The notes under the pieces were generated by a model. The model did not search any database. It saw nothing but the letters and a program-made list of their open reading frames with translations, and was not told the origin of the DNA. Made by a program: the position numbers and the translations under genes. Below, one piece after another: positions 1 through 35,973 of a stretch of 64,000 nt of DNA (position 1 is its first letter; every line of letters starts with the position of its first letter). This DNA is from Sphingomonas endolithica (lineage in GTDB: Bacteria > Pseudomonadota > Alphaproteobacteria > Sphingomonadales > Sphingomonadaceae): the NCBI RefSeq assembly GCF_025231525.1, contig NZ_CP103057.1, positions 2,800,501 to 2,864,500 of the forward strand. Reading direction: 5' to 3'.

Positions 1-167
1 CTGAGCTTCTTTGAGCCTGGTCGTGAAGGGTCGATCCAGAAGGAGCCGCCTTCCTAACGCCGATCGGAGACTTGCCCCAGTTTCAAAAGCCGAGACATAC
101 CAGCGGAGCGCCGCGCGCTCTAGAGGACGGCCGCACCGGACCACAGGTGCCAGAATTGGGCATGCTA

Positions 168-392
168 CTAATCCTCGATGATCGCCAGGCGCGCCGAGAA
201 CCGCACCGCGCTGCTCTCAGGGCTAGTACCGCGCACCCGCAGCGCTGACCCTTTCTCTACGACGCCTGTAAGCTCCACTAGAACGTCGTCCAGGCCAAGG
301 GCGGCGATAGCGCCCGGAACGTGCCGGTGGCGCGTGACGGACATCTCCGCGGTAAATAGCTGCCCTTGCTGCGTGGCTGGCGGGTTGCCGCG
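168..392 (-). pseudogene. Truncated GrlR-like gene (second copy)
   Basis: The minus-strand reading frame encodes the C-terminal two thirds of the GrlR-like protein at 1492-1826. Both copies share the core QGQLFTAEMSVTR and the ending RL-A-(M/I)-I-x-D followed by a stop, and the DNA is clearly homologous over about 215 bp. Upstream of the QQGQLF core (near 380-392) the similarity stops abruptly. The frame then runs without a credible start codon to a stop near 432, so about 40 N-terminal residues, including the conserved GLYKV start, are missing. I read it as a 5'-truncated relic of a tandem duplication; no function is expected. Confidence 0.7.
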
Positions 393-451
393 CGGTTGAG
401 CAACAGTATCGTTAGGTCGACCTCACTGGTCCGCCTCCGAAGGAATCGATT

Positions 452-712
452 ATGTCCGCCGCCGATCTACCGAAATCGTTCAAAGCCCTGCTGACTACCG
501 TAAGCCATGGCGAAGTTGGCCGGCTCACCTTTCACAAAGATCAGGCAACAGAGAGGTTGTCGTTTCGGTTCGTGAATGAAACAGCAGAAGACGTACCGGA
601 AGGGCCAGCCTCGTTACGCATGATAAGCGGCGACGAATACCCGGTTGTGATCAGTAAAGGGCAGTACGATTATCGGGCGACGCCTGATTCGCGAAACACA
701 AAGCCTCAGTAA
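452..712 (+). CDS. Small hypothetical protein
   Basis: This is an 86-residue ORF with an AGGA ribosome-binding site about 8 bases before the ATG. It is acidic to neutral with no signal peptide, membrane segment or cysteine motif, and I recognise no family. It lies between two GrlR-like copies in a stretch of decayed accessory DNA. Its 3' end overlaps, tail to tail, the end of the broken membrane-protein gene on the other strand by about 60 bp, so one of the two 3' ends may not be native. A real but orphan cargo gene is the most likely reading; a chance ORF is possible. Confidence 0.45.
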   Translation: MSAADLPKSFKALLTTVSHGEVGRLTFHKDQATERLSFRFVNETAEDVPEGPASLRMISGDEYPVVISKGQYDYRATPDSRNTKPQ

Positions 713-1007
713 GGCCGGTGTCGCGGGCAGGATCGAGCTTATCTTTAGCCGCTTCGTCATCAGCTTTCTGGGCGTGCTCAGCCGGTATCTGAACCAATCG
801 AGTGAGAAAGTGCAACACGCTGGCAACCACAAGCGTGCCGATCGCCGCAATGGCGCTCCAAGCAATGCCGCCAGTCGCTAGCTATGTGACGACGCCCGCC
901 GCGATGCCCCCCCGATCGTCATCGTAATGCGCGCCCAAATGGGCGAGCCGAACCACCGCGCGCGTATCCGTCCAAGCCTGCTTGGCGATTTGCTCCCAGT
1001 AACTCAT
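651..1007 (-). pseudogene. Small membrane protein gene with in-frame stop
   Basis: From an ATG at 1007, preceded by a strong CAGGAG ribosome-binding site, the minus strand reads MSYWEQIAKQAW and continues to an in-frame TAG near 887-889. It then resumes in the same frame with a hydrophobic helix (IAWSAIAAIGTLVVASVLHFL) and a charged tail rich in K, D and E, ending at 651. No indel is needed, only one nonsense codon, so either the gene was inactivated or a 39-residue product is made. It starts 16 bp after the stop of the 1024-1305 gene, so the two formed an operon. The family is not recognised; one transmembrane segment is predicted by eye. Confidence 0.55.
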
Positions 1008-1023
1008 GCGCTCCTGAGTGTCC

Positions 1024-1305
1024 TTATTCGTCGTCAGATTGGCGGTCGCTATCGTCGCTGTAATCGGGTGCGATCGAGGTCCATAGCGAGCCGGAATTAC
1101 CCTCAGCGTTCACGCCTTCCGGGGCGTCGTCATCCCAATTGAGCAACCACGCCGTAACGATGCCGCCATCGTTCGTGGTGGCGTAATCAAGGGTATAGGG
1201 ATGTTCGTCCAGCATGTCGGGATCAATGCCAAGTTGACCGGCTACATAAGCGCGTTCGCGCTCAGCGTTCACGGTTTCCATATGGTCGTCATACGCTCTC
1301 GACAT
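1024..1305 (-). CDS. Small acidic hypothetical protein
   Basis: About 93 residues starting MSRAYDDHMETVNAER; the start is chosen because AAAGG lies 8 bases upstream, while the frame stays open further upstream without a better site. The body has a compact alternation of polar and aromatic residues (LDYATTNDGGIVTAWLLNWDDD) and a very acidic C-terminus (DYSDDSDRQSDDE). There is no signal peptide or membrane helix. It is followed after 16 bp by the broken small membrane gene and is preceded on the same strand by the intact GrlR-like gene, so the three may once have been co-transcribed. I do not recognise a family; cytoplasmic accessory cargo is an inference. Confidence 0.55.
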   Translation of the reverse strand: MSRAYDDHMETVNAERERAYVAGQLGIDPDMLDEHPYTLDYATTNDGGIVTAWLLNWDDDAPEGVNAEGNSGSLWTSIAPDYSDDSDRQSDDE

Positions 1306-1491
1306 TGGCGTGCCTTTCATCGGGGATGAAGACAGTATGCCTAAGCTTTGCGAGTCGCGGTAGATCCTAGAACCAAACATATCTTGCGGGCGATATGGGA
1401 GGGGGGCGAGCGCCAAACGACGACGCTACGGCGCTCACAAGGAGGCTAGTTGAGCTGGCTGGCGCCACGCACCGTCTCGAGGAACGGCACT

Positions 1492-1826
1492 TAATCCGCA
1501 ATCATCGCCAACCGAGCGGAAAACCGCACTGCGCTGCTCTCGGGGCTGGTGCCGCGCACCCGCAGCGCCGCCCCCTCCTCTACGACGCCTGTAAGCTCCA
1601 CCAGAACGTCGTCCAGGCCAAGCGCGGCAATGGCGCCCGGGACGTGCCGATGACGCGTGACGGACATCTCAGCGGTGAAAAGCTGGCCTTGCTGCTGGTA
1701 CGTGCCAACGTAGCAGAGGCCGCTGTCACCGCCACGCAGGCGGCCGTCCAGCAGATACGCTACGCCGTACTCGGTTCCGGCGGGGGTATCCCAGGTTACC
1801 TTGTATAGGCCGTTTGGTAGGGGCAT
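1492..1826 (-). CDS. GrlR-like regulatory-fold protein
   Basis: About 111 residues. The sequence NGLYKV...G-G-V-LLDGRLRGGDS--CYVGTY resembles the GrlR family (small beta-barrel proteins named for the negative regulator of the LEE type III secretion locus), which also occurs as orphan genes in alphaproteobacteria. An ATG at 1826 is preferred to the GTG at 1832 because AAGGA is correctly spaced for the ATG. No type III secretion genes or GrlA-like partner are in the window, so the secretion role of the namesake should not be transferred. A 5'-truncated second copy lies about 1.1 kb away at 168-392. The family call is from remembered motif similarity. Confidence 0.6.
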
Positions 1827-2344
1827 CGTCACGTCCTTATTGGGTAGGACGGTCGATACCGGTGGTGGGGAAATGGGACCAGTGACGGTAAGATTGGATC
1901 TACCCGTTCAAGCCTTTTCAGATGCTACATGTGGGAAGCAGCCCTCCGCCATTTCCGACAACGGCCGTAATGCCCGCCCAGGCGATATTCAGCGCCCATT
2001 TCGCGATACTCATCTTCCGACATCCATTCATCTCAACCTGACGTCCGCCTCTAGCGGTTGAAAAATCGGCGATGGATGGCGAAAAGCGAGATTCAGCAGT
2101 CCTCCCAATGGTGGCCGCGCCCTTCCGGGCAACGTCGCCGAGGGTATTCTAACGAAGCGAACGACGAACATTGGTCGAGAGCCGCTGGCTGAAAACGGTT
2201 GCTCTGATCCTGTCGGCAAATGCGACCTCATCTGGCGAACCACCATGCCGAACAGCCAGCGACGCCGATCACGCCTTGCGTACCATTAAAACGCCACTGA
2301 TACTGAGCTTTATGTCGATAAGTAATAACACAGGGAATCTTTAG
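1827..2344. other. Intergenic accessory DNA
   Basis: There is no convincing gene here. The only item worth noting is a 31-codon minus-strand frame at 1918-2013 (start MSIAKWALNIAWAGITAVVG) with a GGAAG sequence just before the ATG and a hydrophobic middle; it may be a relic of a small membrane protein. Overlapping open frames on both strands look like chance. Confidence 0.4.
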
Positions 2345-3153
2345 GTGGGGGATTTAGCCAAGCTGTCGATCGCCGGCTGCAACTACGTTGAGGACGCGTT
2401 CGGTCAGCATGTATATCACGTCAACAGTCCTCATGGCCTGATGCAAGCGGTCGGCTATCTGGAACACACAGCCCAGCCCTGGGAGCGCATATATATGCGA
2501 GGTCAGGGCTGTCTATATCCTAGCTTATTGCCGACGCTTTATCGCGCAATAACTAGAAAGAACCAAGGAAAGCGTCACGAGAAGCTGCCTATTTGCTGGC
2601 GTACCTGATTACGCACAAGAACCTTTGCTGCAGCATTATGGGATACAGACTACTTGGCTGGATATCGTAGACAATGCCTGGATCGCTCTTTGGTCTGCTA
2701 CTCATAGGGCGTTAGCGTCGAGACCCAATAATCAGTTCCTACTCTGACGCTAGAAAGCCGACATCCGGCGACGACTTTTCTTATATTTTGCTAATAAAAA
2801 CTGAGGACAGTCGTCGCGAGCGCGTCAAGAGCGGTGTTGCGAAGGGCGACATTGCCGAAACGGTTGATTTAAGGATCGCCGCTCCATCCATTTTTCTCCG
2901 ACCGCATGCTCAGCATGGACTACTTTTCAGAGCGCGTGGGAAAGAAGGAGGCAGGCTTACGGATTATTCTAGCGCGATTGCTGGCGTCGTCCGCTTCACG
3001 CTCCAAGATGGAATAGACTGGCTTGGGTCGGGTGCGATGCATAACGTGAGAGCCCTGTTCCCGCCTCCGTATTTTGATAATGGATACCAAATATTGCTTG
3101 GCATGCAACAGACCGAGCAAGGCGTAGGACTAATCGGGCATATCGGAGCATGA
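2345..3153 (+). pseudogene. FRG-domain protein gene, frameshifted
   Basis: Three consecutive plus-strand frames reconstruct one protein of about 268 residues of the FRG-domain family. The first frame has the signature YMRGQGCLYPSLLPTLYR. The second, entered after an indel near 2585-2592, carries QEPLLQHYGI then WLDIVDNAWIALW and stops at 2745. The third, entered near 2738-2746, carries SYILLIKTED, LRIAAPSIFLRPHAQHGL and ALFPPPYFDNGYQILL. The order and spacing match a complete FRG protein, so two frameshifts broke a once intact gene (or there are sequence errors). FRG domains occur in prophage, toxin-like and defence-associated loci, but their biochemical role is unclear. The GTG start at 2345 is the best available; the ribosome site is weak. 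Confidence 0.75.
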
Positions 3154-3595
3154 TCGATGATGTTCGCTGCCGAAACCGCTGCTCCATACGTTGGCATTCA
3201 GGCCCGTTTCCCTCTTTTCAACTTCGGATACTCATTCGCGCGATCTGCGCCAATTTGAGGCAGCTAGATCATCCACCCATTGAAATAGCCAGTAGTGGCG
3301 GCCAATCTACTTAATCCGCTCGCCCTATCGGGTCAGAACTCGAACTGCTGAGTCTCGCCGAAGCCCTGTCGATCCTGTCTAGGAAGGTGCAATTAAAGAG
3401 GTCGCTTCCGAGCTACGGCGGGGCGCTTACCGAAAAGGCTAATAGTGCCGGTGATCGTCGGTGATTAAAGGATGATGCGGCTGGGTTCTTAGAGGGTCAA
3501 AGAGCCCGATCCACATGCACACGGGATCCAACCCCTAAGCCTGCTGAACCCATCGAACCCGACATTGGCCCCATCCGTATTTGCCGTCGCGATCA
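3154..3595. other. Intergenic gap, no feature seen
   Basis: 442 bp between the broken FRG gene and the 3' end of the OLD-family gene. I see no coding frame with codon bias or ribosome site, no RNA gene, and no inverted repeat strong enough to call a terminator. Confidence 0.5.
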
Positions 3596-5416
3596 TTATG
3601 CCGCGATGTCGATCTTCACCCCAAGAAAGTCCAGCGCCTCCTTCAGGATTGGCTCGAAGTTCGCGAACGTCGTTCGACATTGGTCGTCCGTTTGCTGGCA
3701 GAGCCGGGTCGCAGTCGGAATTTTGTGTTCGGTCGCGAAGTCGTTCTTCACCAAGTAGGCCCACGTCGGGGCCAGCTCAGCTTCGAAAGTAGTCTCGCCG
3801 AGTATGATCCGATTGACAAGATCCGGGTGGCAGATCTTACCCGGCTCACGCGGCACAAGCTTCTTTCTTTTCTCCGCCTCCCTCCAAACGTCTTCTGGAT
3901 ACAGCGCCTCGAGCGTCGCATGAACGCCGAAATGAGCGGTGCGCGCCGCCCGCAGGTTCATCGGCACCGGATACACCAGGCATTTCGCCGACCGAACGTT
4001 GTCGGGCAGCCGGTTGAAGTCCTTCTTAACCTTCTCGGCGTCACCGTCCACGATCCCCACCGCCTTTGGCCTGTCCGGATGATGCTTGTGCTGGGAACGC
4101 CACCCGATAAGCATATCGATGACGTAAGTATGGCCGGCCCCCTCTCGCTTAGTCTCGAAACGAACTTGCCCGACAGCCGCCGGGAAAAAGAGGGCAAGCG
4201 CCCGCTCCAGCACGAGTCGATCGCTCTCACCCTCGACGAAGATGCGACAGCAGCTCTCCTCCGCCATGACGGCGGCAGCGACTTTCGCTGCCTCCTGTTG
4301 CCGAATCTGCGCCACCATCTCCGAAATGCGCGGAGCCAGCATTGCCAGCGTGCCGAGGCTTTCGTCGATGCCCTTCGCGTCCGTCTTCGTCTCGCTGCCA
4401 TCGGTGTCGGTCGTGCGCGTCACGAAATGCAAAACGATGTCACTCTCCCGCTGCCCAAGATCGTAGAAGGCAGGCGAATGAGTGGTCAGCAAGATTTGAG
4501 CGGTCGCCGCCTTGGACAGTTCATGCAACTCGTCGGCGAGCTGCACCGCGCTCCCGATCTCGAGATTGTTCTCCGGCTCCTCATACGCCCAGATGCTGCT
4601 GATGGGGGCTCCCCCACGACGTTGCAGCGCCGCCTTCTTCTCCGCCATGAAACGCAGGATGAGCGGAATGTGACGGGCCTTGATCCCGTCCCCGCGGTTG
4701 TTGAGTGACACCGACTTCTCGCCGCTCAGAAAGTCTAGGCGTTCAAAGATGTGGGAAAGATCCCGCGGCAACGCCAGCCGCGTGGCGAACCCAAGCGATG
4801 TAGATATGCTCGCGGTAAGCTCGTTAAGGTGGTCGCCGATCGACTGCTCGAACGCAGTGCTCGATTCGTGAAACGTGCGGGTCGCAACCTCTGAGATAAT
4901 CCCGTAAATTCGTCCGCGCAGATCGTCGAAGTAATCCGAGTCTTTAATGGCCGGGACGTACTCGAATTCAATCTTGCGCAGCAATGCGTGCACGTTCGAC
5001 TTCTCGGGGATTTTGACGTCCTCCCGAATTTCCAGACCACGCTTGTTCTCGGTAATGCGCTGGCCGTAATAGTCGTACTCCTCGCTCCACAGACCGTCTT
5101 CACGCCAACGCTTCGTCCAGATGATGACGTGGCCGTTGGTGCCATGATAAGACTCCGGTAGGGCGATCTCTACGCGGACCACCACCTCTTTCGCCTTGCG
5201 CACCTTGACCGGAGCGAAGAAATTGTAATCTTCCGCGAAGTCGAACTCGACTCCGGGATTCGTCTCGCCGTTAAAGAAGAGGTTGAGCGACCGCAGGATA
5301 TTAGATTTTCCGCAGTCGTTCCTGCCAACGAAGATCGACAGCTGAGTCAGGTCCGCGTCTACGGACTTGATAGATCTAAAGTTCTCGATGTGGATCGACT
5401 TAATCGTTGCTGCCAT
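3596..5416 (-). CDS. OLD-family ATPase/TOPRIM nuclease
   Basis: About 606 residues. The N-terminal SMC-like ATPase domain has a Walker A GRNDCGKS (residues 31-38) and, near residue 290, the signature/Walker B region ending YEEPENNLE followed by an H-loop LLTTHSPAF. The C-terminal third is a TOPRIM domain: IFVEGESDRLVLERAL supplies the metal-binding glutamate and VGIVDGDAE the DxD. This is the layout of class 1 OLD (overcoming lysogenization defect) proteins, ATP-regulated DNA nickases/nucleases used in phage defence. No UvrD-like helicase (GajB), reverse transcriptase or other class partner is adjacent, so it looks like a solitary OLD. The ATG at 5416 is preferred over the upstream extension to 5440. 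It is the only intact large gene in the decayed segment, and its 5' side faces tRNA-Gly. Confidence 0.85.
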   Translation of the reverse strand: MAATIKSIHIENFRSIKSVDADLTQLSIFVGRNDCGKSNILRSLNLFFNGETNPGVEFDFAEDYNFFAPVKVRKAKEVVVRVEIALPESYHGTNGHVIIWTKRWREDGLWSEEYDYYGQRITENKRGLEIREDVKIPEKSNVHALLRKIEFEYVPAIKDSDYFDDLRGRIYGIISEVATRTFHESSTAFEQSIGDHLNELTASISTSLGFATRLALPRDLSHIFERLDFLSGEKSVSLNNRGDGIKARHIPLILRFMAEKKAALQRRGGAPISSIWAYEEPENNLEIGSAVQLADELHELSKAATAQILLTTHSPAFYDLGQRESDIVLHFVTRTTDTDGSETKTDAKGIDESLGTLAMLAPRISEMVAQIRQQEAAKVAAAVMAEESCCRIFVEGESDRLVLERALALFFPAAVGQVRFETKREGAGHTYVIDMLIGWRSQHKHHPDRPKAVGIVDGDAEKVKKDFNRLPDNVRSAKCLVYPVPMNLRAARTAHFGVHATLEALYPEDVWREAEKRKKLVPREPGKICHPDLVNRIILGETTFEAELAPTWAYLVKNDFATEHKIPTATRLCQQTDDQCRTTFANFEPILKEALDFLGVKIDIAA

Positions 5417-5849
5417 GGCATCCCCCCGTCTCGCCCCCAATCGCGCACCGTTGTGAGAGCGTCGAACGAGTTGTCGAGCCTGCGTCTAGGATAGTGGCGC
5501 AGTCGCGCCAAGCACCGACGAGCTCACTTCACAAAATGTGCCCTGACGGAGGAGCTATGCGGCGCTGTGGAACGCCACGGGCTGTTACCAAAGTCGGATC
5601 CAGCCGCACAGAGCGAACGCGGATCTCCGAAATACCTTGGGGGCTGCCGGAAGGCATCATGTGAACATCAATCCGCCGAGACACTCAGAGTATTCGATGG
5701 CATGGCGAGCAGTCGCACTGTCGGCATTGTCTAGGATGCTCATGCGACTAGCAAACCACCCAGAGTTACCCCGGTGTTACCCCAGACCACACGCGGCTGC
5801 CCTCAGCCCCGGCGGTCAGTTTCTAAGTGCTTGTATTTACTACGGAAAC
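5417..5849. other. Gap between OLD gene and tRNA-Gly
   Basis: About 430 bp that should carry the promoter of the OLD gene and, if the segment is a tRNA-integrated island, the attachment junction. I see no coding sequence with a ribosome site. A short direct repeat (GTTACCCC, twice near 5765-5783) is present, but no copy of the tRNA 3' end was found elsewhere in the first 5.8 kb. Confidence 0.4.
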
Positions 5850-5924
5850 TGGAGCGGGCGAAGGGATTCGAACCCTCGACCCCAACCTTGGCAAGGTTGT
5901 GCTCTACCCCTGAGCTACGCCCGC
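5850..5924 (-). tRNA. tRNA-Gly(GCC)
   Basis: The minus strand reads GCGGGCGTAGCTCAGGGGTA then a CAACC-TTGCCAA-GGTTG anticodon arm with anticodon GCC, the T-arm GGTTCGAATCC and acceptor CGCCCGC-T-CCA. CCA is encoded. The length is 75 nt including CCA and the acceptor pairs perfectly over 7 bp. The 3' end points toward the accessory region, the usual orientation of an island integrated at a tRNA 3' end. Confidence 0.97.
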
Positions 5925-6089
5925 TCTGGCGCCTAACGCCCCTGCCGGTGACCGGAGGGGGCGGGTAAGGAGGCGGCCTCTAACAGTGGTGTCGCGGATC
6001 GGCAACCCCTGTTTCGCTGTCGTGCGAAAAGGGTTGGCTTGCGGGCCCGAGCGCCCACATAAGGCGCACACCAGAAACGGAGTTCGACC

Positions 6090-9073: not shown

Positions 9074-11386
<2,313 letters not shown>

Positions 11387-18102: not shown

Positions 18103-20652
18103 ATGGCGTCGCGCTTCAATGCGCTGAAGGCGGACGCGGCGTGGCAGGGGGTGTGGGATCAACGCTCCACCTTCGCCGCGCGTGACGACAGCCCCAAGCC
18201 CCGTTCGTATGTGCTCGAGATGTTTCCGTACCCGTCGGGGCGGATCCACATGGGCCATGTGCGCAACTACACGATGGGCGACGTGCTGGCGCGCTATCGC
18301 CGCATGATCGGGCATGAAGTGCTCCATCCCATGGGCTGGGATGCGTTCGGCATGCCGGCCGAGAATGCCGCGATGGAAAAGGGCGTCCATCCCGGCCGCT
18401 GGACCCGCGCCAATATCGCGACGATGAAGGCGCAGTTGAAGCGGCTCGGTTTCGCGCTCGATTGGACGCGCGAACTGGCGACGTGCGAGCCGGATTATTA
18501 CGGCCACGAACAGGCCTTGTTCCTCGATCTGTTCAAGGCCGGGCTCGTCTACCGCAAGGAATCGGCGGTCAATTGGGATCCGGTCGACATGACCGTATTG
18601 GCCAACGAGCAGGTGATCGACGGCCGCGGCTGGCGTTCGGGGGCGCTGGTCGAGCGGCGCAAGCTCAGCCAGTGGTTCCTGAAGATCACCGATTTCGCCG
18701 ACGAGCTGCTCGACGGCCTGGACGCGCTCGATCAGTGGCCGGACAAGGTCAAGCTGATGCAGGGCAACTGGATCGGGCGCAGCCAGGGGCTGACCTTCTC
18801 GTTCAAGCTGTCGGATGGCGAAAAGGTCGACGTCTTCACCACGCGGCCGGACACGATGTTCGGCTCGAGCTTCGTCGCCGTCGCCGCCGATCACCCGATT
18901 GCGCGCAAGCTGGCCGAGACCAACGCCGAGGCCGCCGCATTCATCGATTTGTGCAAGCGCGGCGGAACGACTGCGGCCGAGCTCGAAACGCAGGAGAAGC
19001 TCGGCTTCGCGACTGGCATCACCGCGACGCATCCGCTGGATCCGACGTGGCAATTGCCGGTCTACATCGCGAACTTCGTGCTGATGGAATATGGCACCGG
19101 CGCCGTGTTCGGCGTGCCGGCGCACGATCAGCGCGATCTGGACTTCGCGCGCAAATACCGCCTGCCGGTCAAGCGCGTGGTTTCGGACGGCCCGATCGAG
19201 GATCCGGTATTCGTCGGCAACGAGGCGTGGACCGGGCCGGGGACCTTGGTGAATTCGCACTTCCTGGATGGCATGGACATCGAGGATGCCAAGCGCATCG
19301 TCATCGAACGCGCCGAGAGCGATGGCTGGGGCAAGGGCTCGACCGTGTTCCGCTTGCGCGACTGGGGCGTCAGCCGCCAGCGTTACTGGGGCACGCCGAT
19401 CCCGATCATCCATTGCGACAAATGCGGTGCAGTACCGGTGCCGCGCGAACAGCTGCCGGTGGTGTTGCCGGAGGATGTCAGCTTCGACGTGCCGGGCAAT
19501 CCGCTCGATCGTCATACCGGCTGGAATCAGGTCGATTGCCCGTCCTGCGGCGGCGCGGGGCGGCGCGAGACCGACACGCTCGACACGTTCGTCGATTCGT
19601 CCTGGTACTTCATCCGCTTCGCCAGCCAGCCCAAGGACAGGCCGTTCGACCGCGCCGTGGCCGAGAAGTGGCTGCCGGTTGGGCAATATATCGGCGGGGT
19701 CGAGCACGCGATCCTGCACCTGCTCTATGCGCGTTTCTGGACCCGCGCGCTGAAGCACATCGGCCATCTCGATGTGGCGGAACCGTTCGCCGGGCTGTTC
19801 ACGCAAGGCATGGTGACGCACGAGACGTATAGCCGGACGGTGGAGACGCTGGGTACCGACGGCGTGGACGTGATCGCCAAGCCGTTGTGGCTGGCGCCGG
19901 ACGATATCGAGCGCCGCGATGATGGTGTGTTCGACCGCGCAACGGGTGATGCCGTCACCGTCGGGCGCGTCGAGAAGATGTCCAAGTCCAAGAAGAACAC
20001 CGTCGATCCTGAACCGATCGTCGATCAATATGGCGCAGACGCGGTGCGCTGGTTCATGCTGTCGGATTCGCCGCCCGAGCGCGATCTGCCGTGGAGCGAG
20101 AGCGGCATCGAGGGTTGCTGGCGGTTCATTCAGCGGCTGTGGCGGCTGTTCGACGGCGAACGATCCGACGGATCGGGCAGGGATGCGGCGCTGGATCGCA
20201 AGCTGCACCAGACGATCGCCGGCATTGCGCTCGACATCGAAGCGCTCGGCTTCAACAAGGCGGTCGCCAAATTGTACGCGCTGGTCAACGATATCGAGAA
20301 GGCCAAGCCCTCGGCATCGCGCGACACGGCCATCGCCACCTTGATGCGGCTGGTGGCACCGATGGCGCCGCATCTGGCGGAGGAGGCCTGGTCCTTGGCC
20401 GGTAATGACGGCCTGATCGCCGATGCGCCCTGGCCCGAGGTCGATCCGGCGTTGCTGGTCGAGGACGAAGTGACGATCGCGCTGCAAGTGAACGGCAAGC
20501 TGCGCGACACAGTGAAGGTCGCCAAGGGCACGCCCAAGGATGCGATGGAGGCGCTGGCGCTCGCCAATGTCAACGTGCAGCGCGTGCTGGATGGCGCAAT
20601 GCCGAAAAAGATCGTCGTGGTACCCGATCGTCTGGTAAACCTCGTCGCATGA
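18103..20652 (+). CDS. leuS: Leucyl-tRNA synthetase
   Basis: 849 residues. Class I synthetase: [14 protein letters not shown] contains the HIGH motif (about residue 50) and [10 protein letters not shown] the KMSKS loop (about residue 625). The editing domain ([30 protein letters not shown]) and the zinc-like insert ([10 protein letters not shown]) are in normal order, with an anticodon-binding domain at the end. The ATG at 18103 gives the typical MASRFNAL N-terminus; the frame is open upstream into the DUF3576 gene. The stop overlaps the lptE start. Confidence 0.97.
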
Positions 20653-22521: not shown

Positions 22522-23433
22522 TTAAATCTGCTCTCCGCTAAGTCTTTGACAAAGCATGTCTAATTGGTCGAGCGTCGCATAGTTGAGCGTGAGCGACCCG
22601 CCCTTGGCCCCATAAGCGATGCGCACCTGCAGGCCGAGCAGGTCACCCAATTGATGTTCGAGCGCCGCGAGATCTGCGTCGCGCCCACCATCACCCGCCG
22701 ATCGCCCGCGCGGCTCCGGCTTGGCGCCGCGCGCGAGCCGCTCGGTCTCGCGCACCGACAAGCCCTTGGCGATGACCTGATCGACCAGCCCCTCGACATC
22801 GGCAACACCGATCAGCGCACGGGCATGGCCCATGGTGAGATCACCGGTGACGACGCGCTCCTGCACCGGCTGTGGCAGTTCCAACAGACGCAACAGGTTG
22901 GCGATATGGCTCCGCGACTTGTGTACCAGCTTGCCCAGCGCTTCCTGGGTATGACCGTAATCGTCGATCAGGCGATGATACGCCTCCGCCTCTTCGATCG
23001 CGTTGAGATCCTGGCGCTGGATGTTCTCGACCAGCGCGACTTCCATCGTCGCGGCATCGTCGAAATCGCGGACGATGACCGGCACCTCGTGCAACCGGGC
23101 GCGCTGCGCGGCGCGCCAGCGACGCTCCCCGGCGACGATCTGATACCCCTTGCCGTGCGGGCGTACGACGATCGGCTGGATCAGCCCGCGCGCCGCGATC
23201 GAGGTGGCGAGTTCCTCCAGCGCCGCTTCGTCGAAATGTCGCCGCGGCTGATTGGGATGCGGGCTGATCGATCCCACCGGCAAGGTCCGCAGTCCTGGAG
23301 ACAGCGACTCGCTCTGTCCGATCGGCTCTTCGCGCGCGATATCACCAAGCAACGCGTTCAGCCCACGACCAAGTCCAGATCGAGGCTTCGCACGCATCGG
23401 CGTGGCATTGTCTGGTGCAGGGGAGTCGGTCAT
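22522..23433 (-). CDS. parB: Chromosome-partitioning protein ParB
   Basis: 303 residues. The N-terminal RSGLGRGLNALLGD precedes the CTP-binding ParB fold (PHPNQPRRHFDEAALEELATSI, ivAGERRWRAAQRA) and a helix-turn-helix (TQEALGKLVHKSRSHIANLLRLL). The C-terminal dimer domain follows a variable linker. ParB loads at parS as a CTP-dependent sliding clamp and, with ParA, segregates the origin. The start overlaps the parA stop (ATGA). Two candidate parS sites lie 0.8 and 3.3 kb upstream. Confidence 0.96.
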   Translation of the reverse strand: MTDSPAPDNATPMRAKPRSGLGRGLNALLGDIAREEPIGQSESLSPGLRTLPVGSISPHPNQPRRHFDEAALEELATSIAARGLIQPIVVRPHGKGYQIVAGERRWRAAQRARLHEVPVIVRDFDDAATMEVALVENIQRQDLNAIEEAEAYHRLIDDYGHTQEALGKLVHKSRSHIANLLRLLELPQPVQERVVTGDLTMGHARALIGVADVEGLVDQVIAKGLSVRETERLARGAKPEPRGRSAGDGGRDADLAALEHQLGDLLGLQVRIAYGAKGGSLTLNYATLDQLDMLCQRLSGEQI

Positions 23434-24218
23434 GCGGCCTTCGCAGCGTCGGCGCTCTTGGGCAGGCGCGGAATGAGTTCACGGGCCAGTGCCATATACG
23501 CTTCCGATCCCGAGCAGCGATGATCGTAGATCAACGCGGGCAATCCGTGGCTCGGCGCTTCGGAAAGGCGGACGTTGCGCGGGATGACAGTGTCGAACAC
23601 CACACGGCCCAACACGGCGCGGACATCGTTCGACACCTGGTCCGTCAGCCGGTTGCGGCGATCGTACATCGTCAAGGCAACGCCCAGGATCGACAGGCCG
23701 GGATTGAAGCGCTCGCGGATGCGCTCGACCGTGCCGAGCAACTGGCTCAGGCCTTCCAACGCGAAAAACTCGCACTGCAGCGGTACGAGCAGAGAATTGG
23801 CGGCGACCATCGCGTTGAGCGTCAACAGCCCCAACGATGGCGGGCAATCGATCAGCACCACGTCCCAGCGGCTTTCGCACCGGGCAAGCGCACGGCTCAA
23901 GCGGTGCGTCCGCTCCTCATATTCGACCAACTCTATCTCGGCCCCGGACAGATCCGAATTGGCAGGTACGATGTCGAGCTTGGGCACGCAGGTCGCGAGT
24001 GCCGCATCGGTAACAGGCATCTCGCCAAGCAGGATATCGTAAGTCGACTTGCCGCGGCTGGCGCGATTAATGCCAAGGCCGGTCGACGCGTTACCTTGAG
24101 GGTCGAGATCAATGATCAATACATTGAGCCCCGTGGCGGCAAGCGCCGTCCCCACATTGATCGCGGTGGTGGTCTTGCCAACGCCACCTTTTTGATTCGC
24201 CACCGCAATGACATTCAT
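23430..24218 (-). CDS. parA: Chromosome-partitioning ATPase ParA
   Basis: 262 residues from the ATG at 24218, giving the canonical [21 protein letters not shown] with deviant Walker A (residues 10-17). The DLDPQGNAS and LIDCPPSLGLLT motifs follow. ParA forms ATP-dependent gradients on the nucleoid that move ParB-parS complexes. The start overlaps the stop of rsmG by 4 bp, so rsmG-parA-parB is one operon. Confidence 0.97.
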   Translation of the reverse strand: MNVIAVANQKGGVGKTTTAINVGTALAATGLNVLIIDLDPQGNASTGLGINRASRGKSTYDILLGEMPVTDAALATCVPKLDIVPANSDLSGAEIELVEYEERTHRLSRALARCESRWDVVLIDCPPSLGLLTLNAMVAANSLLVPLQCEFFALEGLSQLLGTVERIRERFNPGLSILGVALTMYDRRNRLTDQVSNDVRAVLGRVVFDTVIPRNVRLSEAPSHGLPALIYDHRCSGSEAYMALARELIPRLPKSADAAKAA

Positions 24219-24832
24219 CGACGAGACACCTTGCTGGCGATTACGATGAGAGATTCTGGGTCCGTAGCACTTTGTTCCACGTGGAACACTCCATGCCATG
24301 AACGCTGCGCTTGCGCTACCTCTTCTCGCGCGGTCTTGCCTTTCGGCAGGAGCCAGATGGTCTCTTTGGAGGCGCAATGCCGCGCGGAATTAAGCAGGGC
24401 GTCGATCTGTGACACTGCCCGCGCCGAGATGACACTCGCCTTCAACACCTCGGCCTCGACCTTTATGGCGGCGACGCTGATCTGATGCTGTAACCCCAGA
24501 CGCTCCACAACATGGTCCAGGAAGGCCGCACGCCGACGGCGTGGTTCAATCAGACGCGTCTCAGTTCCCGACAAGAGCGCCGTCACGATCCCCGGAAACC
24601 CTGCGCCGGTTCCAATGTCCAGCCAGGTTCCTGCCGATGCGGCGGCCGCAAGCGGCACCAGCTGCGCAGAATCGAGCATATGCCTGACCCACAGATGATC
24701 GATCGTCGAGGCGGCAATAAGGTTCTGGTTGCCGGACTCCTCGACCACCATGTCGGCAAAGAGACGCAACCGCGCGAGCGCGGCCGCGCCATATCGTTGC
24801 TCGATCCAGTCGCGAGCGTCATCCTCGGTCAT
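24215..24832 (-). CDS. rsmG: 16S rRNA (guanine-527-N7) methyltransferase
   Basis: 205 residues, the standard RsmG length. [42 protein letters not shown] and the SAM-binding [17 protein letters not shown] are diagnostic. It methylates G527 of 16S rRNA, and its loss gives low-level streptomycin resistance. The C-terminal codons for VFHVEQS span the palindrome TGTTCCACGTGGAACA, so this gene also carries a parS site. It overlaps mnmG and parA by 4 bp each. Confidence 0.96.
24273..24288. promoter_or_regulatory. parS: parS centromere-like site 1
   Basis: TGTTCCACGTGGAACA is a perfect 16-bp palindrome matching the conserved bacterial parS sequence class (TGTTNCACGTGNAACA). It lies inside the rsmG reading frame, 55 bp upstream of the parA start and about 9.2 kb from the proposed oriC. 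Confidence 0.92.
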
Positions 24833-26704: not shown

Positions 26705-26720
26705 TGTTCCACGTGGAACG
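26705..26720. promoter_or_regulatory. parS: parS centromere-like site 2
   Basis: TGTTCCACGTGGAACG: a 14-bp perfect palindrome (26706-26719), differing from site 1 only at the last flanking base. It fills the 56-bp gap between mnmE and mnmG, about 6.8 kb from the proposed oriC. Confidence 0.9.
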
Positions 26721-31956: not shown

Positions 31957-32406
31957 TTAGAACGGCTTCACGAACGCCAGGATGACGATCACCGTCGCGG
32001 CCACTGCCGGGATCTCGTTCAACATACGTAGCGTTTTGCCGCTCAGCGTCGGCTTCCCCGCCGCAAGCTTCCTGGCATAGCCGACCGCCCAGCCATGATA
32101 GCCGCTCAAGCCCAGTACGAAGAGCAGTTTGACGTGCAGCCAGCCCTCCGCCCAATGCTGGCCGATCGTCGCCAGCGTCAGGCCGAGCAGCCAGACGATG
32201 ATCATCGCCGGCGTCAGGATGATCTTGCGGATCTTGCTCTCGCGCTCGACCCACAAAGCGGCCTCGTCGGCGCGGCCGGCGGCAAGCGCTTCCTGGTGGT
32301 AGACGAGATAGCGCGGCAGCATGAACAGCCCGGCCATCCAGAAGATCACGAAGATCACATGCGCGGCGAGATACCAATTATACGCCACGATCAAACGCTC
32401 CATCAT
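31957..32406 (-). CDS. hemJ: Protoporphyrinogen oxidase HemJ
   Basis: 149 residues with four membrane helices. YNWYLAAHVIFVIFWMAGLFMLPRYLVYH holds the conserved histidine and the LPR motif of HemJ (UPF0093), WLHVKLLFVLGLSGYHGW the second histidine pair, and LNEIPAVAATVIVILAFVKPF the C-terminus. HemJ oxidises protoporphyrinogen IX in bacteria lacking HemG/HemY. It overlaps the end of hemE by 4 bp, so the haem genes are coupled. Confidence 0.92.
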   Translation of the reverse strand: MMERLIVAYNWYLAAHVIFVIFWMAGLFMLPRYLVYHQEALAAGRADEAALWVERESKIRKIILTPAMIIVWLLGLTLATIGQHWAEGWLHVKLLFVLGLSGYHGWAVGYARKLAAGKPTLSGKTLRMLNEIPAVAATVIVILAFVKPF

Positions 32407-33458
32407 CGTCGTACCCGCGCGAGGAGCGCCTCGACATGCTCTATGGGCGTGTCCGGCAGGATGCCGTGGCCCAGGTTGAAGATATGCGGCCGATCGTCGA
32501 ACGCCGCAAGCACGCGATCAATCGCTTCCTCCAGCGCAGGGCCGCCGGCGATCAATGCCAGCGGATCGAGATTGCCCTGCACCGGCATATGCTTGGGCAG
32601 ATTGGCATCCGCCCATATTGGATCGACCGTCTCGTCCAGCCCCAGCGCATCGACACCGGTCTCCCGCGCATAAGCGGGCAGCTTGCCGCCGGCGCCCTTG
32701 GGGAATCCGATGATCGGCGTGTCGGGATGGCGCGCCTTCAGTCCGGCGACGATCGTGGCATTGGGGGCGATCACCCAGCGTTCGAATTGCGCCGGGCTGA
32801 GCGATCCCGCCCAGCTGTCGAACAATTGCACCGCTTCCACGCCGGCATCGATCTGCGCGGAGAGATAGTCGATCGTCATCGCGGCGATCGCATCGATGAT
32901 CTCGCCGAAGCGCTGCGGATCGCCATAGGCCAGGCGGCGGGTCTCACCCTGGTCCTTGCTGCCTTGGCCTGCGACCATATAGGTCGCCACTGTCCAGGGA
33001 CTGCCGGCAAAGCCCAGGAACGTGGTTTCCGGCGGCAAGGCAGCCGCGACCCGGGCGACGGTCGCATAGACTGGCTCCAGCCGTTCTGCTGCCCCCTGTA
33101 GGCCCTCCAGCGTGGCGCTCGACAGCGGCGGCGCCAGACGCGGGCCTTCGCCGACGCCAAAGCTCAGATCTTGCCCCAGTGCCCAGGGCACCATCAGGAT
33201 ATCGGAAAACAGGATCGCGCCGTCGAACCCGAAGCGCCGGATCGGCTGCAGCGTGACTTCGGCCGCCGCTTCCGGATCGGTGGCGAGCGCCAGAAACCCG
33301 CCTTTCTCGGCCCGCAGCGCTCGATATTCGGGTAGATACCGGCCCGCCTGGCGCATCAGCCAGATCGGTGGGACGCTCTGCCGCACACCCTTCAACACGC
33401 TGAGCAGCGGCTTGGCCGGGAGGGGCTCCGGAGCGGGGATTTCGGACGTTATCGACAA
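32403..33458 (-). CDS. hemE: Uroporphyrinogen decarboxylase
   Basis: 351 residues from TTG 33458. PPIWLMRQAGRYLPEYR is the HemE signature, with FSDILMVPWALGQDLSFG, GFAGSPWTVATYM and FDSWAGSLSP following. It decarboxylates the four acetate side chains of uroporphyrinogen III. It sits next to the proposed replication origin, as in Caulobacter, and is divergent from ppsR across it. Confidence 0.95.
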   Translation of the reverse strand: MSITSEIPAPEPLPAKPLLSVLKGVRQSVPPIWLMRQAGRYLPEYRALRAEKGGFLALATDPEAAAEVTLQPIRRFGFDGAILFSDILMVPWALGQDLSFGVGEGPRLAPPLSSATLEGLQGAAERLEPVYATVARVAAALPPETTFLGFAGSPWTVATYMVAGQGSKDQGETRRLAYGDPQRFGEIIDAIAAMTIDYLSAQIDAGVEAVQLFDSWAGSLSPAQFERWVIAPNATIVAGLKARHPDTPIIGFPKGAGGKLPAYARETGVDALGLDETVDPIWADANLPKHMPVQGNLDPLALIAGGPALEEAIDRVLAAFDDRPHIFNLGHGILPDTPIEHVEALLARVRR

Positions 33459-33752
33459 GCCGGACGAGCCCTTACTTCAATAAGAATTAGAATCTTGAAT
33501 AGATTGTAGCGGTGGTTGGCGCGTTGGTTGTGGGGCTTATGCGCTCATCCCCGATCTGCCAACAGCTTGACCGCAACGCGCCGGACCAAAGCGTGCGATT
33601 CCCGAACGTCGTCCACGATATCCACAGGCTGTGGATGGAACCAGGTGGGTGGGAGCAATTTGTGGACAAGTTGCGGCTTATCCACCGCTTGGCGAGGGGC
33701 CGCGGTTGCGCTAGCGATTCTGCCGATGTTGTCCACAGACCTGTCCTGACCC
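33459..33752. other. oriC: Proposed chromosomal replication origin (oriC)
   Basis: This 294-bp region has no gene. Its left part (33471-33509) is strikingly AT-rich in an otherwise GC-rich genome, as expected of a DNA-unwinding element. The right part has five 9-mers close to the DnaA box TTATCCACA: ATATCCACA (33618-33626), CCATCCACA on the minus strand (33630-33638), TTGTCCACA minus (33661-33669), TTATCCACC (33678-33686) and TTGTCCACA (33729-33737). The first two form the inverted repeat ATCCACAG-G-CTGTGGAT. GANTC (CcrM) sites occur at 33490, 33597 and 33716. The flanking genes, hemE and the RP001 homologue ppsR, are those that flank the Caulobacter origin. Confidence 0.88.
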
Positions 33753-34577
33753 GTGCGATTGCACCTTCATCTGCTGTCGGATTCGACCGGCGAGACGCTG
33801 GAGAACATCGCCAAGGCGGCACTGGCGCAATATGACGACGTCGAGACGATCCGCCATTTCTGGCCGATGGTGCGGACCGAGGCGCACCTTGAACGCATCC
33901 TGCAGGAGATTGCGCAGAATCCGGGCCTGGTGATCTTCACTTTGGTCAATCACGCCACGCGGCGGACGCTGGAGGCGCGGTGTCGCGCCTTGGGCCTGCC
34001 GGCGGTGGCACCGCTCGATGCCGTGAACCATGCACTCTCCGGTATGCTCGGCCAACAGGCCAAGGCGCGGCCGGGGCGGCAACACGTTCTCGACGATGCC
34101 TATTTCGACCGGGTGGAGGCGATCCAGTTCACCATCGCGCATGACGACGGGATCGGCTGGGAGAATTGGGAACAGGCCGATATCGTGCTCGCAGGGGTAT
34201 CGCGCTCGTCCAAGACGCCGACCTCGATCTATCTCGCCAATCGCGGCTATCGCACGGCGAACATCCCGATCGTGGTGGAATCGCCGCCGCCCGACCTGCT
34301 CTACCGATTGAAGCACCCGCTGGTGATCGGGCTGACGACCAGTTCGGAACGGCTGATCCAGGTGCGGCGCAACCGTCTGCTGTCGCTCAACCAGGCGCCG
34401 GAGACATCCTATGTCGATCATGAGGCGGTCACCCGTGAAGTGGCGTTTGCGCGGCGGATTTTCGCCGACAATGATTGGCCGGTGATCGACGTGACCAGGC
34501 GTTCGATCGAGGAAACGGCGGCGGCGATCATCGCGCTGGTCAGTGAACGGCGTGGGGAATCGGCGGTTTCGGAATGA
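33753..34577 (+). CDS. ppsR: PEP synthase/PPDK regulatory kinase-pyrophosphorylase (RP001 homologue)
   Basis: 274 residues. LHLLSDSTGETLENIAKAALAQ at the start and a P-loop GVSRSSKTPTSIYLA near residue 149 are diagnostic of the DUF299 family, bifunctional enzymes that inactivate PPDK or PEP synthase with ADP and reactivate it with phosphate. Rickettsia RP001 belongs here. The GTG at 33753 starts the gene right at the end of the proposed oriC. It overlaps maf by 4 bp. Confidence 0.93.
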   Translation: MRLHLHLLSDSTGETLENIAKAALAQYDDVETIRHFWPMVRTEAHLERILQEIAQNPGLVIFTLVNHATRRTLEARCRALGLPAVAPLDAVNHALSGMLGQQAKARPGRQHVLDDAYFDRVEAIQFTIAHDDGIGWENWEQADIVLAGVSRSSKTPTSIYLANRGYRTANIPIVVESPPPDLLYRLKHPLVIGLTTSSERLIQVRRNRLLSLNQAPETSYVDHEAVTREVAFARRIFADNDWPVIDVTRRSIEETAAAIIALVSERRGESAVSE

Positions 34578-35164
34578 AGGTCGTATTGGCGTCGCAAAGC
34601 GCGTCGCGGCGGGCGATGCTCGTGGCGGCAGGCGTGCCGTTCGAAGCAGTGTCGGCCGGCGTCGACGAGGAGGCGGCCAAAGCTGGCCTGCGCGATCTGA
34701 ATGCCCGCGACCTGGCGGATGCCCTGGCCGAGTTGAAGGCATTGCGCGTCTCGGGGCGGGATCCCGATGCACTGGTGCTGGGCAGCGACTCCGTCGTCGC
34801 GCTGGAGGACGGCACCTTGCTCGACAAGCCCGAGACGCGCGAACAGGCGGCGGCCCACCTGCGGCTGATGTCGGGCAAGCGCCACGAACTGGTCAGCGCC
34901 GCGGTGATCGCCGAACAGTGCAAGCCGGTGTGGCGCGTGGTCGATCGCGCCAAGATGTATGTGCGGCCGCTGTCCGACGCTTTCATCGAGACCTATCTCG
35001 ATGCGGAATGGCCGGCGATTTCGAGCTGTGTCGGTTGCTACCGGATCGAGGGTCCGGGCGCGCAATTGTTCGCGCGGATCGAAGGCAGCCAGTTTACCGT
35101 GCTCGGGCTGCCGCTGCTGCCGGTGCTCGACTATTTGCGGGTTCGCGGAGTTTTGGCGTCATGA
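34574..35164 (+). CDS. maf: Maf-family nucleotide pyrophosphatase
   Basis: 196 residues. LASQSASRRAMLVAAGVPFE is the Maf signature (S-x-SPRR-like loop), GSDSVVALEDGTLLDKPE the catalytic Asp/Lys block, and SCVGCYRIEGPGAQLFARIEG the C-terminal motif. Maf proteins hydrolyse modified or canonical NTPs (dTTP, UTP, m7GTP, depending on the clade); some affect septation. It lies between ppsR and aroE with ATGA overlaps on both sides. Confidence 0.92.
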   Translation: MKVVLASQSASRRAMLVAAGVPFEAVSAGVDEEAAKAGLRDLNARDLADALAELKALRVSGRDPDALVLGSDSVVALEDGTLLDKPETREQAAAHLRLMSGKRHELVSAAVIAEQCKPVWRVVDRAKMYVRPLSDAFIETYLDAEWPAISSCVGCYRIEGPGAQLFARIEGSQFTVLGLPLLPVLDYLRVRGVLAS

Positions 35165-35973
35165 CGAAACCCTATGCCGAGGTGATCGGCGATCCGATCG
35201 CCCAGTCCAAATCGCCGCTGATCCACGGTTTCTGGCTGGAGGCGCTGGGCATCGATGCCGAGTATCGCCGCACGCAGGTAGGCGCGGACGATCTCGGCGC
35301 GTTCCTGGCTGGGCGGCAGCTCGATCCCGACTGGCGCGGCTGCAACATCACCATCCCGCACAAGCAGGCGGCGCTCGACCATGTCGCCGATCCGGGCGGC
35401 GTGCGCGCGTCGATCGGCGCGATCAACACCGTGTTCCGCGGCGAAGACGGCACGTTCGTCGGCACCAATACCGATGCCGGCGGCTTCTATGCGCCGATTT
35501 CCGACCTCGATTTGCCCGGCGCTCCGGTGGTGGTGATCGGCGCCGGCGGCGCGGCGCGCGCAGTGCTGTTCGCGCTGTCGCGGATCGGCGTGGGGCCGGT
35601 CACCATCCTCAACCGCAATGTGTTGAAGGCGGCTGCCTTGCTGTCGTCGTTCGGCTTGAAGGGGAAGGCCCTGCCGCTCGGCACCCCGCTGCCGCCCGCC
35701 GCCCTGCTGGTCAACACCAGCGCACTCGGCATGGTCGGTCAGCCGCCGCTGGACATCGACCTTGATCCGCTGCCCGACGATGCGGTCGTGTATGACGTGG
35801 TCTATGCCCCGCTCGAAACCCCATTGCTGAAAGCGGCGCGCGCGCGCGCGCTGGAGACGGTGGATGGGCTGGAGATGCTGGTCGGCCAGGCGGCATTGGC
35901 CTTTGAATTGCTGTTCGGGGCCGCGCCGCCGCAGGACCGCGACGATGAACTGCGCGCGTTGTTGACCGCATGA
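35161..35973 (+). CDS. aroE: Shikimate dehydrogenase
   Basis: 270 residues from the ATG at 35161. EVIGDPIAQSKSPLIHGFWLEALG and GCNITIPHKQAALDHV carry the shikimate-binding Ser and the catalytic Lys; the NADP fold has VVIGAGGAARAVLFAL; the end has DGLEMLVGQAALAFELLFG. It reduces 3-dehydroshikimate in aromatic amino acid synthesis. It is coupled to maf by ATGA. Confidence 0.95.
   Translation: MTKPYAEVIGDPIAQSKSPLIHGFWLEALGIDAEYRRTQVGADDLGAFLAGRQLDPDWRGCNITIPHKQAALDHVADPGGVRASIGAINTVFRGEDGTFVGTNTDAGGFYAPISDLDLPGAPVVVIGAGGAARAVLFALSRIGVGPVTILNRNVLKAAALLSSFGLKGKALPLGTPLPPAALLVNTSALGMVGQPPLDIDLDPLPDDAVVYDVVYAPLETPLLKAARARALETVDGLEMLVGQAALAFELLFGAAPPQDRDDELRALLTA

Follow-up and report, generated by a model that had tools for sequence, protein, structure and literature searches.

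The divergent genes hemE and ppsR in this Sphingomonas-type genome are separated by a short gap, and the question arises of whether this gap is the chromosomal origin of replication, oriC. The window, i.e., the whole 64-kb stretch of DNA that was analyzed, corresponds to positions 2,800,501–2,864,500 of a single-contig genome of 4,093,801 bp, with the locus at 2.834 Mb. The gap (33459–33752, 294 bp) is gene-free according to the ORF list and Pfam. Its left flank is hemE (uroporphyrinogen decarboxylase; 32403–33458, minus strand; Pfam URO-D, 6.4e-114), whose TTG start codon lies at the edge of the putative origin region, and its right flank is ppsR of the RP001 family (kinase-PPPase; 33753–34577, plus strand; Pfam PF03618, Kinase-PPPase, 4.9e-91), which starts with GTG. 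The hemE side carries hemJ (UPF0093), rho, mnmE, mnmG, parA, and parB, and the opposite side carries maf and coaE; a presumed aroE ORF (34959–35765) gave no Pfam match. By ppsR, the nearest named locus is that of Sphingomonas hylomeconis (92%). An SSU rRNA search found none in the genome, this search having detected only 9 of 14 control genomes. An earlier note had described the gap as a gene-free region between divergent hemE and ppsR, with an AT-rich 40-bp element, five DnaA-like boxes including an inverted pair, three GANTC sites, and parS and parAB nearby, with an origin location that appeared to be conserved from Caulobacter into this lineage; nearly every detail was recovered, as described below. 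We conclude that the hemE–ppsR gap, at ~33,449–33,752, is very probably oriC. The evidence for this comes from the order of the genes, the parABS system, a box cluster that is unique in the genome, a local minimum of the skew, and the conservation of the gap throughout the family.

DnaA-like boxes were defined by at most two mismatches to TTATCCACA and counted inside 33459–33752. Five were found, each matching at 7 or 8 of the nine positions: ATATCCACA at 33618–33626 (plus strand, 8/9), CCATCCACA at 33630–33638 (minus, 7/9), TTGTCCACA at 33661–33669 (minus, 8/9), TTATCCACC at 33678–33686 (plus, 8/9), and again TTGTCCACA at 33729–33737 (plus, 8/9), which adjoins the ppsR start. A sixth, TTATCGACA (33449–33457, plus, 8/9), lies inside the hemE 5′ end, just outside the gap. 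The boxes at 33618 and 33630 are inverted partners, and the pair ATCCACAG-G-CTGTGGAT can be read directly at 33620–33636. Among 90 genus-level family sequences, the slot at 33729–33737 was the best conserved (79/90 with ≤2 mismatches, 66/90 with ≤1), followed by those at 33618 (67/90, ≤2 mismatches) and 33630 (42/90, ≤2 mismatches). The slots at 33661 and 33678 were kept in only 13/90 and 2/90, counts that are possibly too low since the alignment has many gaps around both slots. Not all of the five boxes are thus conserved in relatives.

The clustering of these boxes was compared with chance and with the remainder of the genome. The weighted box score of the gap was 9, whereas 2000 dinucleotide shuffles of the 294 bp averaged 0.63 and never exceeded 5. 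For comparison with the genome itself, 99 stretches of 10 kb were sampled and scored in 48,114 overlapping windows, the best of which reached 6. A second, weaker cluster with this score at ~1.973 Mb was discarded, as on reading it resembled insertion-sequence DNA. Single boxes with ≤1 mismatch showed no excess over the whole window (7 where 3.9 were expected, a count that 13 of 100 shuffles also reached), and it is therefore the clustering, rather than the number, of boxes that is unusual. The variant TTDTCCACA occurs 18 times in the genome, and the two copies in the gap are the only pair less than 300 bp apart, the next closest pair being separated by 3.8 kb; the scan for variants beyond TTDTCCACA covered the sampled stretches, about a third of the genome. 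Exact TTATCCACA was absent from the region and occurs eight times elsewhere in the genome, never within 3.8 kb of another copy, indicating that the putative origin uses weak boxes.

Among all 40-mers of the window, those starting at 33469–33472 have the lowest GC content (27.5%) and mark an AT-rich element at 33469–33511, which bears out the previously described 40-bp element in terms of composition. This element is likely the DNA unwinding element, and it may also hold the hemE promoter. Between it and a GC-rich cluster lies a DnaA-trio-like run, TTG TAG CGG TGG TTG (33504–33518, plus strand). In 107 aligned loci, G recurred at 3-nt steps with frequencies of 0.99, 0.94, 0.78, 0.78, and 0.71. 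When 87 of the 90 genus-level sequences were anchored on the last G, the G frequencies were 0.97, 0.72, 0.84, 0.70, and 0.59 at 3, 7, 10, 13, and 16 bases upstream; of the resulting peaks (0, 3, 7, 10, 13, 16), that at 0 is set by the anchoring, and the phase has one extra base. The trio excess was weak without the anchor (0.609 against 0.569). Long runs of trio triplets sought without the anchor were set aside, as they showed a modest excess over shuffles and were present on both strands. The box slot nearest the AT-rich element (33521–33529, minus strand) is degenerate in this genome, and a box with ≤2 mismatches was found within 3 bases of it in 49 of the 90 genus-level sequences. In locus L214, which belongs to a small-genome genus, the origin reads TTG TTG ATG TTG TTG, then GGAC, then a perfect TGTGGATAA in this slot. 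From this arrangement, we infer that the run of 3-nt-spaced G may have DnaA-trio function. A candidate stem, GTTGGC (33515) with GCCAAC (33558), was rejected, being broken by eye in several relatives.

A further conserved element is the 15-mer TGCCAACAGCTTGAC (33557–33571, plus strand), of which this genome has one copy. The form TGCCAACANNTTGAC was present in 65 of 78 named loci and had matches in 32 of 119 family genomes, where 28 of 33 matches were at the oriC slot. Class-wide, a match was found in 35 of 385 genomes, and among the 30 class-wide loci listed, only those of this genome and one genus-mate were beside both hemE and ppsR. In Sphingomonas and some other members of its family, TGCCAACANNTTGAC is usually single-copy and holds a fixed position ~200 bp away from ppsR. 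In some relatives, the slot holds the box-like TTGTCCACAG or TATCGACAG, and it scores as a box with ≤2 mismatches in only 6 of the 90 genus-level sequences; it is possible that the 15-mer is a weak DnaA box. A bolder proposal, which we regard as doubtful, is that TGCCAACANNTTGAC would be the site of a clade-particular origin-binding factor and not a drifted DnaA box, perhaps in the role that CtrA has in Caulobacter, with the adjoining run of TTG/ATG-type trios as the DnaA single-strand loading element.

GANTC sites, the CcrM methylation type, were found by motif scan at 33490–33494 within the AT-rich element, at 33597–33601 in the center of the gap, and at 33716–33720 near ppsR. The central site was within 3 bases of the same column in 102 of 107 aligned loci, many of which are close relatives, and its N was T in 70, G in 31, and A in 1, indicating that a methylation-type site is kept rather than one sequence. 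GANTC occurred 14.9 times per kb in the gaps and 2.1 times per kb elsewhere in the loci. A protein with a RAMA domain, a domain that CcrM also has, is encoded at 3.03 Mb; it scored above the cut-off and is a candidate CcrM-type enzyme. A GcrA gene is also present in the genome.

The partition genes lie on the hemE side: parA at 23430–24377 (minus strand; Pfam AAA_31) and parB at 22522–23433 (minus strand; Pfam ParB_N, HTH_ParB, and ParB_C). A parS motif match, TGTTCCACGTGGAACA, is at 24273–24288, and a second parS-like site with one mismatch is at 26705–26720, both 7–9 kb from the gap; no further site within one mismatch of TGTTNCACGTGNAACA was found in the genome. In the same part of the window, 22 kb from the putative origin, is ftsK (9074–11386), with four FtsK Pfam domains. 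Positions 1–5950 form a low-GC stretch (54–61%) that ends at tRNA-Gly (5850–5924) and includes a 614-aa AAA_15/OLD-like ATPase, for which the best PADLOC matches were AriA, Old, and GajA. This stretch resembles a genomic island beside a tRNA gene, with a defense-type gene ~28 kb from the putative origin.

The conservation of this arrangement was then examined across the family. Of 119 family genomes, 113 contained ppsR, and in 112 of these hemE was divergent and directly upstream of it. In these 112 gaps, boxes with ≤1 mismatch averaged 2.15 per gap against 0.03 in the adjoining hemE coding DNA, and GANTC averaged 4.97 against 0.60. The hemE control DNA had the length of the gap, or less where the locus ended. 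Because each gap was taken to begin at the first hemE residue in the match, a few hemE codons are included. Three of the 112 gaps had no box with ≤1 mismatch. The enrichment of boxes and GANTC in so constant a gap points to an origin location that is conserved across the family. Among 80 named loci, hemE was seen in 78, the other two being L107, which ends 300 bp upstream, and L147, which gave no hemE match.

Genomes lacking one of the two neighbors serve as natural experiments. L204 has no hemE match within the 1.5 kb examined, and its block is complete, with an exact box and another that has one mismatch. L214 and L215, from one genus, have no ppsR match in the genome, and each has a strong box cluster beside hemE (11 and 12 boxes with ≤1 mismatch, of which 7 and 6 are perfect TTATCCACA). 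The origin regions of this small-genome genus (L214, 2579–2821; L215, 1179–1437) thus carry perfect boxes, unlike the weak ones here. In L147, from a metagenome-assembled genome, hemE is missing and hemJ appears to abut; the block is recognizable by eye before ppsR, although it holds no box with ≤1 mismatch. The block can therefore outlast either neighbor, as it is kept in L204, where hemE is unseen, and in L214 and L215, which have no ppsR, the L147 case being weak. These genomes suggest that selection may hold the origin itself and not the gene pair. Six family genomes gave no ppsR match. Two of them are those with the cluster, and the other four are uninformative: two gave no hemE match, another (L213) has a single exact box ~290 bp from the hemE match, and in a low-quality one (L216 and L217) the hemE match is split and boxes with ≤1 mismatch are absent. 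Separately, the ppsR–hemE locus of the record Arthrobacter sp. TPD3018 is Sphingomonas-like (85% in ppsR), and this record is probably mislabeled or contaminated.

Strand composition was analyzed both locally and genome-wide. The cumulative G−C minimum over window positions 20,000–60,000 was at 33,398, which is 61 bp outside the gap; the curve for the full 64 kb was deepest at 5,946, within the low-GC stretch. Genome-wide skew was computed from 100 samples of 10 kb and placed the terminus at 0.53–0.66 Mb, with a scrambled plateau at ~2.25–3.45 Mb that contains the locus. Within the plateau, strand composition was mostly positive at 2.60–2.72 Mb and mostly negative at 2.865–2.99 Mb. Two-step fits of GC skew gave an origin at 3.60 Mb (arms 20–80%) or 3.40 Mb (arms 30–70%; 5–95% of 150 bootstraps, 3.25–3.44), i.e., 0.4–0.8 Mb from the locus, and the sampled cumulative minimum was at 3.23 Mb. 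The prediction in the earlier note of a genome-wide cumulative minimum at the locus thus failed, and genome-wide GC skew alone gives the locus no support. The orientation of KOPS switched at 2.99 Mb, with a 5–95% bootstrap interval of 2.82–3.11; the KOPS terminus was at 0.655 Mb, the antipode of which is 2.70 Mb. A 6-mer strand model meant to sharpen the skew was abandoned, as it gave contradictory switches at 2.60 and 3.59 Mb and none at 2.834 Mb. When the genome was split at 2.834 Mb, the mean GC skew was −0.014 (54 samples) against +0.023 (46), and the KOPS net was −52 of 80 against +54 of 100. Over the nearest 600 kb, the flanks of the locus were alike (GC skew −0.0045 and −0.008; KOPS net −1 of 19 and +4 of 30). 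A skew switch elsewhere had been named as a refutation, and this is partly what was seen: the GC fits at 3.40–3.60 Mb leave out the locus, the KOPS interval just includes it, and the local minimum at 33,398 stands beside the gap. Our reading is that the plateau may have arisen by rearrangement near the origin.

These data could mean that the working origin lies elsewhere, at a GC-skew switch (~2.60 or 3.2–3.6 Mb), and that the hemE–ppsR gap is an ancestral or silent origin, as would suit the GC fits, the cumulative minimum at 3.23 Mb, and the strand-model switches. However, these switches mutually disagree, as rearrangements would presumably cause, and the KOPS interval includes 2.834 Mb, if barely. 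Moreover, no other TTDTCCACA pair within 300 bp exists in the genome (wider box variants having been scanned in about a third of it), parS-like sites occur only near the gap, and the box slots are conserved in relatives, so that we consider an origin elsewhere unlikely. An origin at dnaA, as in many bacteria, would have a natural candidate in the single dnaA copy at 4.069 Mb, 1.24 Mb from the gap. The flanks of dnaA, however, show no switch, with GC skews of +0.048 and +0.043, one sign throughout the arm, and a KOPS net that is positive on both sides (+19 of 25; +8); only one box with ≤1 mismatch occurs in the 12 kb around dnaA, and no parS-like site is there. The lack of a skew switch rules this site out, and we give it practically no weight.

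Alternatively, the gap could be no more than the shared promoter region of hemE and ppsR, carrying DnaA sites that regulate these divergent genes, with the AT-rich stretch as the hemE promoter. Both genes diverge from the gap, promoters are expected to be AT-rich, and DnaA boxes have regulatory uses in general. Nevertheless, the block persists without ppsR (L214, L215) or without an adjoining hemE (L204 and, by eye and with weak boxes, L147), and for TTDTCCACA the cluster is unique in the genome, making a purely promoter function very improbable, although the gap may act as a promoter region as well as oriC.

With the gap taken as oriC, its anatomy, conservation, and genome-uniqueness, and the genes for DnaA, a RAMA-domain (CcrM-type) protein, GcrA, ParA, and ParB, are seen in the genome, and we infer binding, melting, methylation, and timing from them. 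DnaA would load on the boxes, of which 33618–33638 and 33729–33737 hold the best conserved, and would spread toward the 3-nt-spaced G run and the AT-rich element at 33469–33511, which would then open. The GANTC sites would be methylated by a CcrM-type enzyme and may time or tune initiation, and ParB on the nearby parS would move the new origins apart. A Sphingomonas-type origin is placed here by several independent signals, while genome-wide GC skew points several hundred kilobases off; predictions from skew alone need care in the Sphingomonas group. In addition, the family alignment singles out particular bases, namely the central GANTC, the 15-mer, and the 3-nt run. It is chiefly these small conserved elements, and the way in which genome-wide skew misleads, that are of interest.

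Finally, we compared the locus with known origins. In the DnaA-trio or basal unwinding system of Bacillus subtilis and others, an AT-rich element, a 3-nt repeat ending in G, a GC-rich cluster, and a DnaA box similarly follow one another on one strand, and L214 has the version with a perfect box. The triplets here are mostly TTG, ATG, and TAG, whereas DnaA-trio triplets are typically of the TAG type, and the box slot next to the run is degenerate here. The hemE–RP001 origin type of Alphaproteobacteria includes Cori of Caulobacter crescentus and also the origin of Rickettsia prowazekii. The Caulobacter origin is flanked by hemE and RP001. Unlike Cori, this oriC has no CtrA-type TTAA-N7-TTAA, up to one mismatch, in 33439–33760. 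In the 112 family gaps, a full CtrA-type site was found in 1 and one with ≤1 mismatch in 18, i.e., 0.39 CtrA-like sites per gap against 0.13 in shuffles, so that some relatives may keep CtrA sites. The strict IHF consensus was absent from this oriC and present in 1 of the 112 gaps. Also unlike Caulobacter, where dnaA is near the origin, dnaA here is far from it. The likenesses are a position between divergent hemE and RP001 family genes; parA, parB, mnmG, mnmE, and rho on the hemE side and maf and coaE on the other, which is also the Caulobacter order; weak DnaA boxes with an AT-rich element and GANTC sites; and a genome that encodes GcrA and a protein with a RAMA domain. Thus, the locus has what marks a hemE–RP001 type oriC, namely its position between divergent hemE and RP001/ppsR, a cluster of DnaA boxes beyond chance, an AT-rich element beside them (judged on composition), and parS and parAB within ~10 kb, together with the conserved GANTC sites expected of a CcrM-methylated origin. 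This oriC is an expected, Caulobacter-like origin of an already known kind.
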